DNA of 23,578 nucleotides. Source: Acrasis kona (taxonomy: Eukaryota > Heterolobosea > Eutetramitea > Acrasida > Acrasidae). The position numbers and the translations under genes are program-made. Under the pieces are notes generated by a model. That model did not search any database and was not told the DNA's origin. It saw nothing but the letters and a program-made list of their open reading frames with translations. The stretch lies in the NCBI GenBank assembly GCA_026419775.2, contig JAOPGA020001594.1, positions 1 to 23,578 of the forward strand. The letters run 5' to 3'. Shown here piece by piece: positions 1,953-23,578 of this stretch. Within the stretch, counting starts at the first letter, position 1; each line of letters begins with the position of its first letter.

Positions 1953-2918
1953 TTGTTTTCTGTTTTGTTTTTATATCCATCCTTGTTCATGAATATTATA
2001 GGCTTGTCTTGTGGTGACTTTGAGAAATTATTAAAAGATGTTGAGGGTGACCTCTCACTTACAAGCCTTGACAATCCTAATGTAATTAAAACAAGTAAAA
2101 GTGGAAGGAAAAAAGAATTAACTGAGCGTGATCAACTTTTAATGTGTTTGTTTTGGATGAGACAATACGTAGTACTATATGTAATAGCATGGATAACAGG
2201 GTTATCTCCATCCACAGTCCAAAAATATAACAAAGCCACAATAGCAGTTCTCTATAAGTACTTTGACCCAAAGATTCACATTCCATCCTACTGGTTGCGT
2301 AGAAAGAATGGTGCAGTATTGAGACGAGCTCTGATTACAATTGTATTGGATGGGTCGGAACAAGGNATCAACAAGCCACATGATAAAGCTGTAGAACAAT
2401 CACTTTTCTCAGGTAAGAACACAAACTTCTTGCATTTCTAATAACTGTAAGGTAAAAAAGCAAAACACACTTTCACAATGCTTATTGCATGTGCACCAAA
2501 TGGTTACATTTATTATGTAAGCCCATCGTACAACGGTTCATTGAACAACAAAAATTTGATTGATATGGAGGAGAACAAAATCTATGTACATTTACGGGAA
2601 TCAGAGTGGATTGCGGCAGACTTGGGTTTCCGTGGACTCCAACATGACTATTCAAGAGTAACATTCCCTTACCCTGACAATACTGTACAGTTAAATGAAG
2701 AACAAAAGCAGTTCAACAAGGAATTTAAAAACATTAGAATAATTGTTGAAAACGCAATTATGTACATTAAAATGTGGAAAGTCTGCAAGTACACTTATAG
2801 GTCATATAAAACAGATATCAAGGAGGTACAAAGGGAGCATCATAAGTTGTGGGTCATCGCGGCTGGTTTAGTGAGTAAGTTTGTGATGCCGGTCCGACCA
2901 GACCTTTACAATAGATAA
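1953..2918 (+). CDS. DDE_Tnp_4-type transposase (ISL2EU/Harbinger-like), two exons
   Basis: The second exon follows a 39-nt intron (2413-2451, GTAAGA..CTAATAACTGTAAG). Splicing joins the frames as FSGKKAKHT, the conserved block after the first catalytic Asp in this family. The first exon carries a helix-turn-helix (residues about 65-90: LLMCLFWMRQ... then LSPSTVQKYN) before the catalytic core. The acidic triad is complete: D in VLDGSEQ (codon 2349-2351), D in AADLGF (2619-2621) and E in IIVENAIMYIK (2748-2750). The enzyme would cut the 17-bp TIRs and insert at TA. The start is uncertain: the first ATG at 1953 gives 308 residues, but the tract before FMNIIGLSCGDFEKLL is hydrophobic and T-rich and could be intronic, with real coding beginning upstream by splicing. 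AATAAA starts on the last two bases of the TAA stop. The N at 2365 is in a GGN glycine codon and does not affect the protein. Confidence 0.85.
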
Positions 2919-3279: not shown

Positions 3280-4248
3280 ATGACCCTCCTCGACAACATT
3301 AAGAAGAACACTAAAGTCGTAGCAGATTCTGGCGACTTCGGTTCTATCAAAGAGTTTACCCCACAAGATTCTACAACAAACCCCTCATTGATCTTAGCCG
3401 CTGCTCAATTAGACTCATACAGCAAGCTGGTTCAAGACGCAGTAGATTATGGTCTAAAGCACGACGGAAAGGACCAACTAGAAAAGACAATGGATAAACT
3501 TTGCGTTAACTTCGGCACAGAAATTTTAAAGATAATTCCTGGAAGAGTCAGCACGGAAGTTGATGCTCGCTTGTCCTTTGATACGGAGGCCACTGTAGCA
3601 AAAGCCCATGATTTAATTAAATTATACGAGGATAACAACATCAGCAAGGATCGCATTTTGATTAAAATAGCGTCAACCTGGGAGGGATTGAAAGCAGCAC
3701 AAATTCTAGAGAAGGAAGGCATTCATTGCAACCTTACATTGATGTTCTCTTTGGCGCAAGCCGTAGCCGCTGCACAATTTGGCTGTACTTTAATTTCTCC
3801 ATTCGTCGGTAGAATTTTGGACTGGTTCAAGGCCCAAGATGCCAAAGGCGATTTTGCAAAGGAGAACGATCCTGGAGTAAAGAGTGTGACAGAAATCTAC
3901 AATTACTACAAAAAGTTTGACTACAAGACCGTTGTGATGGGTGCTTCATTCCGTAACACTGATGAGATTGTGGAGTTGGTTGGTTGTGACTTTTTGACCA
4001 TTTCACCAAAGCTGCTAAAGGACTTGGCAGGATCAAGTGATGATGCAGATCCCAAATTGAGCGTGGAAAAGGCCAAGCAGAGCGATATCAAAAAATGGGA
4101 CGACATCACAGAGAGCAAGTTTAGATGGGAACTCAATCAAGATGCGATGGCAACTGAGAAGTTAGCGGAAGGAATCAGAAAGTTTGCGGAGGACATTATC
4201 AAGTTGGAAAAGATTGTATCAGAGAAACTCATTCCTGTAAACAAATAA
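3280..4248 (+). CDS. Transaldolase
   Basis: The 322-residue protein is the usual length for this enzyme. It moves a three-carbon dihydroxyacetone unit from sedoheptulose 7-phosphate to glyceraldehyde 3-phosphate in the non-oxidative pentose phosphate pathway, in the cytosol. Lys129, in [11 protein letters not shown], is the Schiff-base lysine. Asp16 (VVADSGD), Asn34 (TTNPSL) and Glu93 ([11 protein letters not shown]) are the other active-site positions. The substrate-phosphate region [16 protein letters not shown] is present as LTLMFSLAQ...[12 protein letters not shown]. There is no intron. The ATG follows an A-rich leader. AATAAA (4244-4249) contains the TAA stop, and the convergent BBIP1-like gene ends 18 bp away. 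Confidence 0.97.
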
Positions 4249-4266: not shown

Positions 4267-4509
4267 TCATTCATACTGTGGTTGTTCGTTTTTAAATCCA
4301 CGATCTGCTGCTTCCTTCTCCATTTGTTCAATCTTTTCTAATGTTACACTCTTTAATGGCATTATTTTTGGCTTGCATAATATTTCGCTTAGCGTTGACT
4401 TCTCCGAGTACACAAGACCCGCTCTAGCGAGAACTTCTTCAATTGGCGCACCTCGCTTGTATGGTGAATAAGATCACTCAACAAATATTAGTCTTACTTT
4501 CTTATCCAT
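4267..4509 (-). CDS. BBIP1: BBIP1-like BBSome-interacting protein, two exons
   Basis: This small gene codes for 66 residues. Exon 1 (4498-4509) encodes Met-Asp-Lys-Lys. A 42-nt intron (4456-4497, GTAAGACTAAT..ACAAG) follows, and exon 2 (4267-4455) gives the remainder. The core EVLARAGLVYSEK followed by LCKPKIMPLKSVTLEKIE closely matches the signature of BBIP1/BBIP10, whose hallmark is an LCKPK..PLKS.TLEK.E block. In animals BBIP1 is the smallest subunit of the BBSome, the coat that moves membrane proteins in cilia, and it also affects cytoplasmic microtubules. The length matches the family. The stop lies 18 bp from the transaldolase stop, with AATAAA (minus strand, 4257-4262) just after it. 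The gene shares a 118-bp divergent promoter with the F-box gene. Its presence suggests flagellate ancestry or life stages, which is inference. Annotators could easily miss it. Confidence 0.85.
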
Positions 4510-4557
4510 TCGATGATAGTTGTTGGCGCCTGTACGAATTATGTAACAATACCTCCT

Positions 4558-4627: not shown

Positions 4628-6445
4628 ATGGAATATTCATACCTCTGTAGAGTTCATGTATTTCCTAATGGAACACTACATCACGGCAAAGTATTAGCAT
4701 TCGAGCGCTCCACGGCAACATTTGAGGATGTATTGCTATTAGCAGCAAGGAAATTTAATGTGGACGTGGAAGGTGCAATGCTTAATATGGGCCCATACTC
4801 AACGAATCATCCAAGGTTATTTACAATAAAAGGTTCCGAAGTTGGTGATTTGTGCGAAATCGTTAGCGACGATATACTTGTATTTGTTCCTCCCAACGAG
4901 ACCTTCATACCGCCAGTACCTCTAGAACAAGTCATACTGAGCTATGTGTCTCCACACTCACATGCCGTGCCAAGTAGCAGCTATTATGCATCCCAAAATT
5001 ATAATTATAATGTATACAACAATCCAGTTAATTCAAACATTTATGGAGGGTTTCCCACCGAGAACCAGGCAGCCACCAACAATACAATGTTCCAAACAAG
5101 ACCCAAACAGAAAAGTAGTGCGCCAAATGGACCCTCTGGCGTCGTTCAACAAGCCATCAGCCCCCTCCACTCACATGCAAGACCACCATCACCTTATTGC
5201 TCTGTATCACCGCGCACGAGTGCTTCCTCTTCAAAACAATTGTTTGCTCAATCTTTGGAGGTGTACGATAACTTTAAAACATCTTCAAGCATACACTCAA
5301 ACCGCTTGTTGATGGGCAGCGCTCAAATACAACAAATGAACTTCATACCTGACATTTACCTGCTCATATTCTCCTTCCTGGACCACAAGGACATCTTGTT
5401 AACCATCGCACTCACATGTCGACAGTGGAACAATGACTATGCAAAGAGCGAAGCCTTATGGAAGGAATTGTGCATGAACGTTCAATACTATAGAGAGCAG
5501 AGAAGAAGGCTGCATTCCTCATTCCACAATGCATTCTCCATCGTCGGCGACACTTCATCACCAGTCAGTTCATTTTCGCTCAAGGAGATCAAGGACACAT
5601 ATCGCGAGCTGGCCAGACCTCCCATGGAATACAAGTCGTGGAAAACATACTATCGGTACTATAGTCATTGGGCAGGAGCGCTCACATGGGACACCACCGA
5701 ACGCGGACCCAACGTCAAGTTTCAGAATCAAAACCTGACCGTGTACAGAGATGACAACATTACGTATCACTGGCAAACCGTACGATCCACGACGCCCATC
5801 ATCATTCCGACCGAAAAACAAAAGACAGGCGTCATGAGCGCATTGAGCGGAGTGAGCGACGACATTGCCATTTACGAGTGGGAGATCGTGATCAACAAGT
5901 TCGACAAGAACCACAGCAACGGTTGGTGGGTGGTGATTGGACTGGAGACCGAACATTTTCCGTACAAGGAGAGCACGCCTACAAACTTGGTCGGATACGA
6001 CAGACACATGGGATGGGGATATGCTTGTGGAAATGGAGATGCATTACATTGTTACAGCAACGTTACTTTGAAGAACAAACAACCGTTCACTTGCGATCCG
6101 GTGACTGCATGGATGAATGTGCCTTACGGACAGGGCGATGTGATTAGAGTGCGCGTCAAGTACTTTACAAAGTGTTGCGTCGATGCCATCGATCCAAAAG
6201 AGAACATTGGTGCCACGTTGGACTATTATGTGAATGATAAATGGATGGGTCAAGCGTTCAGAAACATTACTGGCGTCGTTTATCCTGCGGTCAGCTTGTT
6301 GACGAATCAGGCCATAACGCTGAGGCACGTGGATCCGATCGTGAGCAGGATGATTCAAAAGAAAAACGATCAACTATCAGAGAGGGAGGTAGACAGTAAA
6401 TTAAGTATCGTGAGCATAGGTCCTCAAAGTAAAAATAAAATGTAA
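4628..6445 (+). CDS. KHA domain, F-box and SPRY protein
   Basis: The 605-residue protein starts at ATG 4628; the frame extends three bases further to a TTG, which is not a likely start. Three modules are visible. Residues about 5-97 resemble the KHA domain (a ubiquitin-like fold also found at the N-terminus of KCTD9): RVHVFPNG..GKVLAF, then LFTIKG, then DDILVFVPP. A Ser/Pro/Asn/Tyr-rich linker runs to about 230. Residues about 238-285 are an F-box (FIPDIYLLIFSFLDHKDILLT followed by CRQWNND and LWKELC). Residues about 375-570 form a SPRY-like domain: YEWEI, GWWVVIGLE, GWGYACGNG, LDYYVNDKWMGQAF and VYPAVSLL. F-box proteins recruit substrates to SCF ubiquitin ligases through Skp1; SPRY would be the substrate reader, and KHA may dimerise. 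These roles are inferred from the domains. No intron was found. Confidence 0.85.
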   Translation: MEYSYLCRVHVFPNGTLHHGKVLAFERSTATFEDVLLLAARKFNVDVEGAMLNMGPYSTNHPRLFTIKGSEVGDLCEIVSDDILVFVPPNETFIPPVPLEQVILSYVSPHSHAVPSSSYYASQNYNYNVYNNPVNSNIYGGFPTENQAATNNTMFQTRPKQKSSAPNGPSGVVQQAISPLHSHARPPSPYCSVSPRTSASSSKQLFAQSLEVYDNFKTSSSIHSNRLLMGSAQIQQMNFIPDIYLLIFSFLDHKDILLTIALTCRQWNNDYAKSEALWKELCMNVQYYREQRRRLHSSFHNAFSIVGDTSSPVSSFSLKEIKDTYRELARPPMEYKSWKTYYRYYSHWAGALTWDTTERGPNVKFQNQNLTVYRDDNITYHWQTVRSTTPIIIPTEKQKTGVMSALSGVSDDIAIYEWEIVINKFDKNHSNGWWVVIGLETEHFPYKESTPTNLVGYDRHMGWGYACGNGDALHCYSNVTLKNKQPFTCDPVTAWMNVPYGQGDVIRVRVKYFTKCCVDAIDPKENIGATLDYYVNDKWMGQAFRNITGVVYPAVSLLTNQAITLRHVDPIVSRMIQKKNDQLSEREVDSKLSIVSIGPQSKNKM

Positions 6446-10838: not shown

Positions 10839-12092
10839 ATGATGAGCGCAGGCGGCACGCAGCAATTACATGGTGCTAGTTATCACCAGGATGCTAATGG
10901 ATCTGTTACGGTGTCCTTGGGGGATGATTCGCCCATTCAGATTCCAAACGCCGCAACCATAATTTGTAGAGGAAACTTGCCAAAAGCTGCAGTGGAAGAG
11001 TTAAAGAATTGGCTCTTTAGTAAGTGACCATGATGCGCACTTGCATTAAACCCAAACAGAACATTTTCATAATCCATACCCCTCCGATGACGACAAGAAG
11101 GTACTAATGTCAAAAACAAGTAAGCTCCATCGTATCATGTCGCTAAACATTTTTCAGACCTCACCATGACCCAGGTCAACAATTGGTTCATTAATGCAAG
11201 AAGGAGAATATGGAGGCCCATCGTGGAGGGAAGACACCAGAATGGAGAAGCAAAGAATGAAGGCTCCCTATCAAAATCACCTAGGAACAACAACAACAAC
11301 ATGATGGGACAGCAGCAGCAACCAATCAACATTCAACCACACGCTGCCACCGCTTCACAGAACAATCTAATGTACAACCCATCAGCACCACAACAAACAT
11401 CTTCATCCCACATGGCACCTCCATTCGGTCAGCATCAAGAAGACGTCGCTGAGGCAAGACTATTGATGACGTCCGAAGTCGAGCAGTACCTGTCCAACAC
11501 CGAAAATTTAAACGACGGCAATACGATCGAAGCGCCAAAGAAGAATCCGCTGTTGGTGATGAGCATGGAGGGCGTGGAACCAACCACATCATCAAGAAAA
11601 AGAAAAAGAAGCGAACAGGTCACCGATCCTACCAACGACTACAAGAGCAAGGAATCATTCGTCGAAGAGAATTACCAAAGCATGCTCGACGAATATTACC
11701 GCCTGAGAAGAGAAAACGTCACGTTGAAGGGAGAATTGAATCGACTGAGCAACAGCTTTCAAAAAATGTACGTGGACATTACCAGAAGACATTCCAACAT
11801 GGAGACGAAAATAGTGGAGATGGAGGCGTTGAGGGCTCATCTAGAAGTCGGCAACAGCGAACTGTTGAAAAGAATCGACGAGACTAGGAAGGTGAGTTTG
11901 ATGCGTCCGAGCGGATCCAAGGTAACGACCAACGAAACGCCTGCATTCCAGACCTCATCTCCGACCACAACATCGACGACGCACAATGTACTTTTATCCG
12001 CTAGTGATGGTGCTTTTAGGGCAAAGAAGCAAAAGACCAATATATCCTTCATCGATTCGAACAAGGAATCCTCCTCTGTTTTGATTGTGTAA
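10839..12092 (+). CDS. TALE-class homeodomain transcription factor, at least three exons
   Basis: Exons 10839-11019, 11060-11119 and 11158-12092 are split by introns of 40 nt (11020-11059) and 38 nt (11120-11157) and encode 391 residues. Both introns interrupt the homeodomain (residues about 42-102). Splicing restores LKNWLFKHFHNPYPSDDDKK and LTMTQVNNWFINARRRIW. The PYP in the three-residue loop and the isoleucine of WFINARRR are TALE hallmarks. A basic cluster RKRKR lies downstream as a likely nuclear signal. A Leu/Arg-rich coiled coil (about residues 250-320) could dimerise the protein. In fungi, amoebae and green algae TALE factors often control mating or development, but nothing here shows a specific role. 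The open frame extends upstream to 10770 only through a TTG; 10839 is the first ATG, and a further 5' exon remains possible. AATAAA overlaps the stop. Confidence 0.9.
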
Positions 12093-12117
12093 TAAATAGA
12101 TGAATTGTAAAATATTT

Positions 12118-13977
12118 TTATTCTTCCAACCACGGATTCATGTCGATGGTCTTTTTGCTTCGATCTCCATAATCATGACGAAGTTCCTGTCCCATTCGAA
12201 TCGCACAGCAACTAAACATGCACAACCTGGGCACGCCGTTCACGATAATCTTTCTAGCGAACACGTTATTGTTTGGTTCCTTCCTGTGATTGACCAATCT
12301 AGCGACGCCATACCTCTCGTCGGTGGCATCGATGCACATTTGTTTTCGATGTAAAAAGTACATCATGTAACATCCCTTGTTTTGGCTCTCGTATCGTTCT
12401 TCTCTGATGATTGCCTCCTTCCTGTCTATCAAATCTCCCTTGTATTCGAACAGAAAGGACCCCCTGGGAATGTCACACTTTGCAAAGATGCCGCGTCCAA
12501 TCACATCTCCGAGAAATACAATCTATGAATTAATGATGACCAGCGCGCGTGCATGCTTACGTCTACGGGTATCACATAATCAATGTTAATCTTGTGAATG
12601 ACGGTGGCGCGCGTCTCTGTTAATTCGCGCGACCGCACATCATCAATCACGAATGGATTCATGGATGCATTGGGTGATGGTGGATTTAATGTTGGTGATG
12701 GTTGTTGTTGTTGTGGTGGTGGTGAATCTGGCGAGTAGTAGACCTTTTTTGTTAAACTTCTCTTTGATCGATGGCCAACGTCTTGTTTTGTCGTACTGTT
12801 GGGCGATGGCGATGGTGATGGCGATGATGGTTGGTTGGTGATGGAGGTTCGCGTGCGTCTTTGTGTGGATTTGATTTGTTCGATTGTTAATTCCTTGATG
12901 AAATCACAAGCAGTGAGGTAGCATTGCTCAATGTCACATCCATTCAAGAAGATTTCTTGTACTTGTTTTCTTGCAGCTGTTCTCGCCGCTGCATTACCTA
13001 TTTGTGTATATAGCGATACCAATTGTTCATTAGACTAGAATGATGATGACGATGATGATGATGTCATGCTTACCTTTGATGGGAATTTCGCGTGCTTTTG
13101 AAATATTTTGCAATCATCGGTACAAACATCAAAGATGCGATACACTGTGCTCATTTCATGTTTGGGACATGACGTGGTGTATTCGACATTTTCTTGATTA
13201 TTTGATGGCGATGATGCTCTGCTTCTTTTATTCACTGTGGGTTGATCGGTTGTGATTTTGTTTGATTCGCTTTGTGATGCATCTAGTGCTGTCGTTTCAT
13301 TTTGTACATCATGTCGTTTGATTTGATTGGTATTGTCGCCTTTGGACTTTTTTGGAGTTGGTTCTTTTCGTGAATTGGATGATTTTCTCTTTTTTATATT
13401 GTTGGGATTGGGCGAACCATCCACCGTTTCATCAACTTTGACCTTCTTTGGAGTTGATTCATTTTGTATCATTGATTGATTGTCTTGTTGAATGATTTCG
13501 TTCCGTAAATGTTCGTCTTGTTGTTTCACATCATTGGGTTCGATTTGTACGATGGATGAAGTCATCTTTTTTGTTTCTTGTTCGAGAGAGCGATTGCAAT
13601 CATCAACTATAATCACTGATGGTGGTGGTGGTGGTGGCGATACAACAACTCTACGATAATTATACTTGACGAGTATGGAGCTATAGCACTGCTCTTGTGT
13701 GTTTGATGTGAGACGAAACATTCGAAAAATGTCCTGTATCAAATCCAACCTCTTGATGCTCTCTCGCTCGAACGAATTAAACAAGTACAGCAAGTCCTCG
13801 TTTCCCTTGACACACGGTCACGCTCGTGCATGTTCGAATACTTACTTGTGCAAGAAAGTGTGGCGTCCATGCCTTGCAAATCGAACAGTTCTGTTCGTCG
13901 CAATGTCTCTCGCTGCTGGTCACAAAGTGAAGAGGACAAATCACCACGCTCGATTCATCAAATCCAAAAGAACACAT
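12118..13977 (-). CDS. KMT5A/SET8-like histone H4K20 methyltransferase, four exons
   Basis: Exons on the minus strand are 13846-13977, 13074-13805, 12561-13034 and 12118-12522, separated by introns of 40, 39 and 38 nt. All junctions are phase 0 and the protein has 580 residues. The C-terminal SET domain (about 447-580) matches the KMT5A type: GRGIFAKCDIPRG, FEYKGDLIDRKEA, GCYMMYF, RLVNH and HDYGDRSK, ending in NPWLEE. Such enzymes monomethylate histone H4 Lys20 using S-adenosylmethionine. The first exon is Cys/His-rich (Cys2, Cys14, His17, His25, Cys26, Cys31, Cys34), a likely zinc-binding module, and a second cluster (CPKH then CTDDC) closes exon 2. Between them is a low-complexity Ser/Asn/Lys/Pro linker. 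The ATG at 13977 is used because the codon before it is TTG. The start is only 27 bp from the S1P lyase stop. AATAAA contains the stop, 25 bp from the TALE gene end. Confidence 0.88.
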
Positions 13978-17561: not shown

Positions 17562-18869
17562 ATGATGCGGTCACTGATAACATACGGTAGCACCATAGCG
17601 TTGCAAAGTCCCACATTTAAGCGCTACCTCAGCGCAGAAGAAAGCGGAAATCTCTCGTGCAACAGTCAAACTCCAGTTCAAAACGAATATTTTATTATTG
17701 AAAAAGCACCAAGGATTGGAATAGAGAGATATACGAACTCAAAGGAGCAGAGAGATGCCTCGCTTGGAATGCCTGTACAATATTATGACTTGATTCACCT
17801 CAGGTCTATGAGTGGAAAGTTTGTCCTGGCAGACGACTCCGGAAAAGCACTATGCAATGCAACAATACCCCTGTTATGGGAAACTTTTTCAATTAATTCA
17901 TCTACTGGAAGGGATCACGGACCCATTAGTACGGGGGCAACAATCAATTTATTCTCAGGACAGCATCATCGTTACTTGGTGGTGGAAAGAAATCTAAGGG
18001 TAAATTGTGACAGAAGAGAACCAAAAGAGTTTGAAAAGTTCAACGTCATATTAATCAATCAGTACACCAGGCCCTATTACAACACAACACAAAATCCATA
18101 CATGTCACAACCAAACTATACAATCCATCAAAACTACACACAACCACCACATATATCAATGTATCCAAGCATGCAACCGCAACAACCACAACAATATCAA
18201 CTACCAACGAGCTATAACACACAATATCCTTCGCTACCTGCACCAGCCTATCAGACAACATTACCATACTATCAACAATACGTAGTCAACACGCAGCCAC
18301 AACAACAACAGCAACAACAACAACAACAGCAATTCTTACCCTACAATCCTCCTATACAAGCCAACGTATTGAGAGCGTCTCCCGAACCATCACCTCAAGC
18401 AAAATTCGAGTCCATGTACAGCCAACTCAAACGCGAAACCGTTCAAAGCGGAAAGTTACAAATCACACAAAATTATTTCAAGGATCAGTCGACGCCCATA
18501 CTTTTAGTAGACAATGTGATTAGCGTCCTACGCGAATTCACATTATCCAATTACAGGATGGAATCATTAAAGTCAATGATCTATGAAGAAAAGATTAAAG
18601 TACCAGTGGATCACTTACAGGATATTATTGGTTTATATCAACAGGACTGCGATCGGTTAAAGTCATTAAAAGTTCTAATGGAACAAAAAGATATTGCTGG
18701 AATCAATTGCAAGCAGCTGTGTGTTTTGTTGAGATTGTTTAGTGTAGACTATCACAGGAGTCAGGCCCTCAAGTCCTTAAAAAATTATTTGATCGACGCC
18801 GACAGCGTTGAGATTGCTAATGAATTTCGTTTTGTTAAATTTTCTGAACAAGCAATAAATGAAGTGTGA
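17562..18869 (+). CDS. Beta-trefoil (fascin-like), polyQ and DUF4476 protein
   Basis: The 435-residue, intronless protein has three parts. Residues about 5-168 hold three repeats of a beta-trefoil pattern: start of strand GSTIALQS / DLIHLRSMSG / ATINLFSGQH, then a Y/F-L/V-A/V-E/D turn, then an L-C/N-C-N strand, and usually an E-F ending (WETFSI, EKFNVI). Fascin and other actin- or sugar-binding trefoils use this fold. Residues about 170-280 are a Tyr/Pro/Gln-rich linker with a polyglutamine run (CAA/CAG at about 18300-18331). Residues about 283-430 match the DUF4476 style of tandem helical units (TLSNYRMESLKSM, then DCDRLKSLKVL, then DYHRSQALKSLKNYLID). Function is unknown; cortical actin or surface binding is a guess. 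No AATAAA is visible near the stop. Confidence 0.75.
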   Translation: MMRSLITYGSTIALQSPTFKRYLSAEESGNLSCNSQTPVQNEYFIIEKAPRIGIERYTNSKEQRDASLGMPVQYYDLIHLRSMSGKFVLADDSGKALCNATIPLLWETFSINSSTGRDHGPISTGATINLFSGQHHRYLVVERNLRVNCDRREPKEFEKFNVILINQYTRPYYNTTQNPYMSQPNYTIHQNYTQPPHISMYPSMQPQQPQQYQLPTSYNTQYPSLPAPAYQTTLPYYQQYVVNTQPQQQQQQQQQQQFLPYNPPIQANVLRASPEPSPQAKFESMYSQLKRETVQSGKLQITQNYFKDQSTPILLVDNVISVLREFTLSNYRMESLKSMIYEEKIKVPVDHLQDIIGLYQQDCDRLKSLKVLMEQKDIAGINCKQLCVLLRLFSVDYHRSQALKSLKNYLIDADSVEIANEFRFVKFSEQAINEV

Positions 18870-21140: not shown

Positions 21141-23578
21141 TTAAGAACTCACATCAACTAGGGTGCGGTACGGATTAACATAATCGTTGTTATTTCCTTT
21201 GAGTTTGTATACAATGGGATCACAAACATCTACAGCCACCAGCTTTTTGACAATCTGGGATCCTGATACAAGAGTAAACCCTAACCCAGGATCAAGCGAC
21301 GTTAATCTGTACTGCCCTGTTGCATGTACTCCATAATCATTATGTAATGATACAACAGCAAATAAATGATTGTTAAAGAGGACAAATGCCCTTATGACGC
21401 CAATATAAGATGTTTTTTCGATATATGGATTATTTCTCTCAGCGTTGGGAAATACTAGCTCTACAATATAAGATTGCCTTACAACTGGCCTTTTGTAGAG
21501 TGTCGAGTGAAATACAACCTCGTTAATCATTGCACGATTGAATACTTGATAATGAGAAACACTGAGTCTAGCATCATGAAACAACGTGCGCATTAAGTTG
21601 ATATCCAGTTTATGATCCGTGACACTTTTTCCTTTCAGAATGTACTCAGAGCCATCCCAGCTAGTACATACAATACCCTTCTTTGAATCGCCATTTCTTG
21701 TCAGTAGAGTTGTTGGAAGTGGTAGATTTGTATTATTATATCCCTCTAACGCTTCTAGCATCCCATACAATCTAATGTCCCTAAACATGGACTTATCGAT
21801 ATTGCCGGTCCCATGAGTAGTATTCCTGATGATTGACAGAAGGTTCTCCAACTCAAAGCACCATACATTACAGAGTGGTCCTTGATATTCGATATATCGT
21901 CTGAGTTGTCGTAGTAGCTGCATCTTGAATGTAATGCGTTTTGTATCGAATTTCGATTTGATGGTGTTAACAATTTCATTGCCAAGCTGGTCAATCTTGT
22001 CAACATCTTCACTGGTGTACTTTTCTTTAACAAGTAAGCGAACAAGGTTCTGCAGCTTCAACCAGATGCTAATAATGTAATTTGGTAGGTTCTCAACGTT
22101 GGATAGTAGAACTGGCATGTACCATAAAGTGTAATACTTGAGCTCATCTGCCTTCATGCTGTTGATATTAGAGAGGTCACGAAAGCATCTATGATTATCA
22201 TGAGAACTTCGAAATATCATTGTTTTTGTAACAGTTATGATGTCTTTTTTCAAAGTTGGTACAGCCTTGTAACAAAAGTCAAGCAACTGATTAAAGACAC
22301 CTTTTACAAAGAAAATGTGCATGATGTCGATTGGTGATCCCTTCACTGGACAAAAGTAGGAAATGCATGTAAATACTGATAAACCGTGTTGACCATTAAC
22401 AGTTTCATTACAATCAATTGCGTTCAATCCATCTCTCAAGTGAGTTGTTCGATCTCGTAGTTGTTCGCTCTTATTGTTTGGCCAATAAATATGTTTGTTC
22501 ACTTGGCCATTCTTCTTCTTACCAATGACAACAGACTCTCCAATACTATAGTCAATATAGTTACCATTATAGCTACCCCATGATGTCTGCTTTTGTACAA
22601 GATATCTAGCTTGAAGATCACAATCGTTAGAAATTAAAGCAATCTTCCACTCTTCTCTGCGCTTTGTGTAACTATTGTACATTGGAAATGAGTGAGAATA
22701 AGAGTATTCATATTCCCAAACCGCTGGTAGTAGAACATCATCTATGCAATCTGGTTTAACCAAATACGTCTGTAATGCTGTTACAAAAGCGAATCTAGGT
22801 TGCCTTCGAAGTTCCTTTGGTAACATCAAATTTTTAATAACTGCCGGCCATGTATCTTTATATGAACTTTTGGATGTTTTTAGTCCATCGTACCCAACAG
22901 ACGAGTATATGACATTTTGATTTGGAAACAAATCGATTGTACTTCTTCCAACAGTGCCATCATACCAGTCTTGATAACCTTGGTGTGCTCTATCAATTTT
23001 ACTCAATTCCCTGCTGAATTTTGTAACTATTTCCGCAAATGATTTATCGCCAGCAAACATCACACTCAAATATGATGTGTATGGAGTGTAGTGCACCAAG
23101 GATTTCTTTGTACTTTTGCAACATGGGCATTCAATATTCTTCGCAATCTTTTCAGTAGTAGGCCAAACATATCGATGGCAAACTCCACATCCGGTGAGTT
23201 CGTAGGTAACAATCCCAAATTCATCCAATTGCTTTATCATTGTATTGAAATTTTTTGGTACATTGTGCCCGAGCATTACTAATAAACCAAGAAAAGAGTC
23301 CAAGGTAGATATACTGAGTCTGTGAGTCTCCTTCATGCACAAGAGATATAGCATTAGGTACATATTCGTAACAGATCCCCCAACTATATCCTTCCAGAAT
23401 TTTGACGGAGTGGGTTTTGTTTTATGTTTGTCTCGCTTGTGTTTATCAAAGAATTCGAACCACAAATCTCGGTCTCTTCTGGGGTCACTCTTATAAATGT
23501 TTGGATTTGCAATATCCTCTTCAATATCTGATTCGTCGCTATATTCAAATTCGTAGTTGAAGCCGTCTTCGTCACTCC
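21141..23578 (-). CDS. Tnp2-like transposase (EnSpm/CACTA-type superfamily), 5' end outside the window
   Basis: The frame is open from the TAA at 21141-21143 to the window edge, at least 811 residues; no ATG is visible at the true start. The Tnp2 pattern is clear: GYDGLKTSKSSYKDTWPAVI (catalytic Asp, codon 22887-22889), then LPKELRRQPRF, then the second acidic site in LISNDCDLQARYL. KGSPIDIMHIFF is the equivalent of the D-MH block, and GPLCNVWCFELENLL supplies the third acidic residue (Glu). A Cys pair cluster (CGVC..CPCC) about 90 residues before the first Asp is a likely zinc site. The visible N-terminus is strongly acidic. There is no internal stop, so the copy may still code for an active enzyme. 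Terminal inverted repeats were not found on the side inside the window. It belongs with fungal and protist Plavaka/EnSpm-like elements rather than plant CACTA in the narrow sense; this is my judgement from motif order. Confidence 0.85.
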   Translation of the reverse strand, partial: SDEDGFNYEFEYSDESDIEEDIANPNIYKSDPRRDRDLWFEFFDKHKRDKHKTKPTPSKFWKDIVGGSVTNMYLMLYLLCMKETHRLSISTLDSFLGLLVMLGHNVPKNFNTMIKQLDEFGIVTYELTGCGVCHRYVWPTTEKIAKNIECPCCKSTKKSLVHYTPYTSYLSVMFAGDKSFAEIVTKFSRELSKIDRAHQGYQDWYDGTVGRSTIDLFPNQNVIYSSVGYDGLKTSKSSYKDTWPAVIKNLMLPKELRRQPRFAFVTALQTYLVKPDCIDDVLLPAVWEYEYSYSHSFPMYNSYTKRREEWKIALISNDCDLQARYLVQKQTSWGSYNGNYIDYSIGESVVIGKKKNGQVNKHIYWPNNKSEQLRDRTTHLRDGLNAIDCNETVNGQHGLSVFTCISYFCPVKGSPIDIMHIFFVKGVFNQLLDFCYKAVPTLKKDIITVTKTMIFRSSHDNHRCFRDLSNINSMKADELKYYTLWYMPVLLSNVENLPNYIISIWLKLQNLVRLLVKEKYTSEDVDKIDQLGNEIVNTIKSKFDTKRITFKMQLLRQLRRYIEYQGPLCNVWCFELENLLSIIRNTTHGTGNIDKSMFRDIRLYGMLEALEGYNNTNLPLPTTLLTRNGDSKKGIVCTSWDGSEYILKGKSVTDHKLDINLMRTLFHDARLSVSHYQVFNRAMINEVVFHSTLYKRPVVRQSYIVELVFPNAERNNPYIEKTSYIGVIRAFVLFNNHLFAVVSLHNDYGVHATGQYRLTSLDPGLGFTLVSGSQIVKKLVAVDVCDPIVYKLKGNNNDYVNPYRTLVDVSS

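Follow-up and report, generated by a model that had tools for sequence, protein, structure and literature searches.

The small BBSome subunit BBIP1, or BBS18, has been described at the structural level in the human complex, where, in the portion of PMC7018512 devoted to it, the protein is 93 residues long, is almost wholly unfolded and threads the TPR superhelices of BBS4 and BBS8 as a U-bolt-like clamp, while the helix that follows the U-bolt touches BBS1 loosely. Acrasis kona, an aggregating heterolobosean amoeba, has been considered aflagellate, according to the passages on this organism in a 2025 paper on TPPP proteins (PMC12731214); these cite Panek et al. 2025 for the proposal of a cryptic flagellate stage, a recent finding that covers both A. 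kona and A. rosea, and the A. kona genome paper for the identification of flagellum-associated genes such as IFT in the two species. In its main text the genome paper itself (PMC11589745) contains no flagellar, ciliary, intraflagellar or axonemal terms, and a paper on Naegleria tubulins (PMC9036621) reports, in the lines that mention A. kona, that its sequences group with flagellate and with mitotic tubulins. Among the open-licence literature we found no paper on A. kona BBIP1, judging from the titles and abstract openings of the matches listed.

Our study concerns a 66-residue open frame in a stretch of 23,578 nucleotides (the window) of A. kona contig JAOPGA020001594.1. The frame lies in a gap of 379 bp between the stop codon of a transaldolase gene (4248) and the ATG of an F-box gene (4628), and its spliced translation runs over two exons on the minus strand, 4509-4498 and 4455-4267. 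The preliminary description, made from the letters of the window, had placed a 66-residue gene with a coding first exon of 12 nt in a gap of this size, and both the gene and the gap are as it stated. Without splicing, the frame from the ATG closes at a stop after eleven codons. A scan of all GT..AG pairs of 20 to 120 nt that would link the conserved exon to an ATG no more than 300 nt upstream of it gave two joins with an open frame, the 42-nt intron of the table and a 27-nt alternative with a GTTGAG donor, which we judge to be the poorer of the two. Introns read by eye elsewhere in the genome measure 68 nt in a gene of the same window, which we take to be RACK1-like, 40 nt in BBS2 and 37 nt in BBS5. 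Since the genome paper gives a span of 9-95 bp for A. kona introns in its statement on intron size (PMC11589745), the length of 42 nt is normal for this organism. By the account of annotation in the same paper, acceptance of a deposited gene model could rest on RNA-seq coverage, a Pfam domain or both (PMC11589745). The deposited protein AKO1_011420 has exactly the 42-nt-intron model, and the BBIP1 gene of A. kona is real, intact and ordinary in its features.

Table. Features of the window, with positions in the window, followed by profile matches in the A. kona assembly.
Feature	Position	Strand	Support
DDE-type transposase pieces, two open frames	1953-2918		HTH_Tnp_4 and DDE_Tnp_4
Transaldolase, convergent	3280..4248	+	PF00923, E 2.8e-97
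AATAAA	4244	+	
AATAAA	4257	-	
BBIP1 coding exon 2, 62 codons and TGA; core LCKPK-MPLKS-TLEK	4267..4455	-	PF14777 (E 6.2e-23), PDB chains, alignment
Predicted BBIP1 intron of 42 nt (GTAAGA...TACAAG), each frame with a stop	4456..4497	-	
BBIP1 coding exon 1, 12 nt, MDKK	4498..4509	-	N-terminus identical to deposited AKO1_011420
GCGCCAA site upstream of BBIP1	4523-4529		
F-box protein, divergent	4628..6445	+	F-box-like PF12937, E 7.6e-8, over cut-off
Homeobox-KN match end (+) and SET domain (-), in open frames	11166-13022	+ and -	Homeobox-KN below cut-off
435-residue protein	17562-18869		DUF4476 and a fascin-like stretch below cut-off
Open frame of 811 residues, continuing past the end of the contig	21141-23576	-	No Pfam match at 1e-3
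BBS9, assembly			Best match 6.3e-46
BBS5, assembly			Best match 8.6e-88
BBS2, assembly			Best match 4.0e-25
BBS1, assembly			Best match 2.3e-45
BBS7, assembly			Best match 1.1e-59
IFT52, assembly			Best match 1.6e-90
IFT140, assembly			Best match 7.1e-31
Radial spoke (PF04712), assembly			Best match 6.3e-102
SAS-6, assembly			Best match 2.2e-28
KAP, assembly			Best match 4.0e-139
Tubulin, assembly			19 matches; 13 of 14 control genomes also match

The identity of the protein is carried by several lines of comparison. A profile search, which could have given no BBIP1 match, returned Pfam PF14777 (BBIP10) at E = 6.2e-23, scoring 80.6 bits where 26 is the cut-off, with residues 6-56 of the protein aligned to positions 5-54 of the 64 in the profile. 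Searched with the same profile, the contigs of the A. kona assembly (37.35 Mb in 1021 contigs, for a genome estimated at 44.02 Mb in the size figure given by PMC11589745) yielded a single match, at E = 1.3e-20, and the 14 control genomes, by name well-known prokaryotes, yielded none. PDB chains entitled 'Bardet-Biedl syndrome 18 protein' (E 3.3e-10) and 'BBSome-interacting protein 1' (E 6.9e-8) were matched, and a protein search retained 170 of 171 candidates at E <= 0.001, all 120 of those listed carrying PF14777. The best of the matches listed is AKO1_011420 of A. kona itself, which UniRef names BBSome-interacting protein 1 and which is also present in NCBI; named BBIP1 relatives from Naegleria, Diplonema, green algae and others stand in the same list. 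In an alignment of 13 proteins, the A. kona protein and 12 homologues hand-chosen from the 120 listed of 170, 20 columns are identical, and A. kona BBIP1 contains the conserved core AGLVYSEK...LCKPK.MPLKS.TLEK. A BBIP1 of 54 residues on a 10 kb JGI metagenome contig shares 91% identity with the A. kona protein across 83% of the query; as a guess, it perhaps belongs to an unsequenced acrasid.

On its sequence, the 66-residue protein is thus BBIP1 (BBS18/BBIP10), the smallest BBSome subunit, and the BBIP1-like identity and the LCKPK-PLKS-TLEK signature of the preliminary description are upheld by the profile, the PDB chains and the alignment. That the frame is open by chance and resembles BBIP1 by accident might be entertained for a product of a mere 66 residues whose 12-nt first exon has no direct homology support. 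Set against the E-value of the PF14777 match, the one match in an assembly of 37.35 Mb and the 170 homologues, this explanation deserves practically no credence, and we reject it. Two claims of the preliminary description did not survive: the gene was called hidden, and BBIP1 of A. kona was implied to have been overlooked. Neither is so, because an identical 66-residue protein had already been deposited as AKO1_011420 with the very same splice model and a UniRef name, although the reading of the sequence was itself exact.

The gene is closely flanked on both sides. BBIP1 and the transaldolase gene stand tail-to-tail with 18 bp between their stop codons, while BBIP1 and the F-box gene stand head-to-head with 118 bp between their start codons. 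As AATAAA occurs on both strands in the tail-to-tail interval and its margin, the 3' ends of the BBIP1 and transaldolase transcripts are likely to overlap. The F-box neighbour has a further match to SPRY that falls below the cut-off (E 3.1e-5, 24.5 against 26.3 bits). Among the other features of the window, the transposase pieces are presumably Harbinger-like, and the 811-residue frame has the look of a putative transposon protein.

The preliminary description had further held that other BBSome and IFT genes would persist in this genome. That expectation proved correct, because the assembly matches over the Pfam cut-offs in all eleven families searched besides PF14777, including BBS1, BBS2, BBS5, BBS7, BBS9, IFT52 and IFT140 as well as KAP for the IFT motor, SAS-6 for the centriole and PF04712 for the radial spokes, whereas the BBS, IFT, radial-spoke, SAS-6 and KAP profiles matched in 0 of the 14 control genomes. 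All five BBSome subunits searched besides BBIP1 (BBS1, 2, 5, 7 and 9) are present. The matches fall exon by exon, and the pieces of BBS9, BBS5, IFT52, BBS1, BBS7 and SAS-6 contain stop codons, two TAA in the case of SAS-6, which we assume to be intronic; one intron in BBS2 and one in BBS5 were modelled in addition to that of BBIP1. The radial-spoke matches on contigs C704, C262 and C433 lie in stop-free frames of 555, 554 and 599 aa, respectively.

These three radial-spoke (PF04712) genes are strong, and two are nearly equal in score (345.1 and 345.0 bits); they may be either paralogues or redundant contigs. The gene counts exclude a weak match to the radial-spoke profile (C1), two weak ones to KAP (C609, C706) and a second BBS7-profile match on C516 beside the BBS2 match, and of the 23 matches to the IFT140 profile the two on C396 were taken as IFT140 and the others as WD40 proteins. 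By eye, the probable start of BBS7 (MDLNLPRIDLTKVG..., locus L013, just upstream of 1501) is off-frame relative to the remainder of the first exon, owing either to a sequencing error or to an intron that escaped notice.

What this gene set is kept for can be read in more than one way. In A. kona the BBSome, with BBIP1 as part of it, might have lost its ciliary site and now serve vesicle traffic in the amoeba, in which case it would have no bearing on a flagellate stage; such re-use would sit well with an organism considered aflagellate in the account given by PMC12731214 and with a genome paper whose main text is free of the flagellar and ciliary terms searched (PMC11589745). It would leave unexplained the three stop-free radial-spoke frames, together with the matches to SAS-6 (its two TAA being taken as an intron), IFT52, IFT140 and KAP, and we regard it as very unlikely. 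To our knowledge, radial spokes have no role outside the motile axoneme. The ciliary set therefore points to a motile flagellum rather than to a BBSome re-used elsewhere.

A second possibility is that BBIP1 and the other ciliary genes fell out of use recently and are relics that can still be recognised. While the aflagellate reputation of A. kona (PMC12731214, in its remarks on the species) and the stop codons in several ciliary matches, intronic by assumption, would fit such decay, the BBIP1 frame is intact, the metagenome relative has kept 91% identity over 83% of the query, and the other families match over cut-off without exception (11 of 11), all of which makes decay highly improbable. 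The flagellate ancestry or stages that the preliminary description had inferred follow from the gene set, and for A. kona they are already in print in the passage of PMC12731214 that cites Panek et al. 2025.

We also compared the regions upstream of the ciliary genes. The 150 bp upstream of BBIP1, BBS1, BBS2, BBS5, BBS7, BBS9 and IFT52, with starts chosen by eye, were set against a background of 80 promoters, each preceding the first ATG in an ORF of 200 aa or more, taken from 20 stretches of other contigs and the window and unscreened for ciliary or transposon genes. A GTCAAC motif was rejected, being found in 4 of 7 ciliary and 18 of 80 background promoters (one-sided Fisher p = 0.065). GCGCCAA, a sequence we assume to be E2F-like, occurs within this distance of three of the seven ciliary genes (BBIP1, BBS2 and IFT52) and in 1 of 80 background promoters. 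It is absent, by eye, from the region upstream of IFT140, the single later gene that was readable, and with IFT140 added the count becomes 3 of 8 (p = 0.002, uncorrected, for a motif picked post hoc with nine patterns scored). The motif is a weak lead only, because it was picked after the sequences had been viewed. E2F drives ciliogenesis in animals. That the ciliary genes of A. kona, including BBIP1, form a silent regulon jointly switched on through GCGCCAA sites immediately before the start codon is a speculation that we think very unlikely to hold; if true, the control of these genes would be deeply parallel to that in animals.

The reading we favour, and hold with high confidence, joins three elements: the gene is BBIP1, its role by homology would be that of a BBS4/BBS8 clamp, and the ciliary set would be kept for a motile flagellate stage. 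Because the protein aligns to the solved chains and shares 20 identical columns with its homologues, we propose the same scaffold role for it. By homology with the human complex, A. kona BBIP1 would bind the TPR domains of BBS4 and BBS8 within the BBSome; mostly unfolded, it may wind through their superhelices and clamp both. This clamp would support assembly of the BBSome, which could then act as a cargo adaptor on IFT trains in the flagellum. Selection for a motile flagellate stage, rare or unseen in culture, may maintain the ciliary set including the radial spokes, and it is the presence of radial-spoke genes in the retained set that suggests selection for motility.

BBIP1 of A. kona is already annotated and its main implication already published, and so our analysis is a confirmation and not a discovery. 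The evidence that an "aflagellate" aggregating amoeba retains the gene set of a motile flagellum gains one intact small subunit, and the case shows that the letters of a sequence alone can suffice for a correct reading of a two-exon gene of 66 residues.

Comparison with the known BBIP1 proteins places the locus among them. AKO1_011420 is equal in length and identical at all 66 residues, and represents the same gene. Two relatives in the genus Naegleria, FDP41_000738 of N. fowleri (71% identity over 88% of the query) and C9374_004411 of N. lovaniensis (78% over 77%), have the core in common with A. kona, but both are 77 residues long, with longer N- and C-termini, and have LSKPK where A. kona has LCKPK. 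Residues 9-62 and 9-55 of the A. kona protein align with the solved BBS18/BBIP1 chains of 6vbu and 6xt9, which we take to be the bovine BBSome and a human core complex, respectively, and both alignments include LCKPK.PLKS.TLEK. The human protein exceeds that of A. kona by 93 residues to 66 and would have a longer N-terminus.
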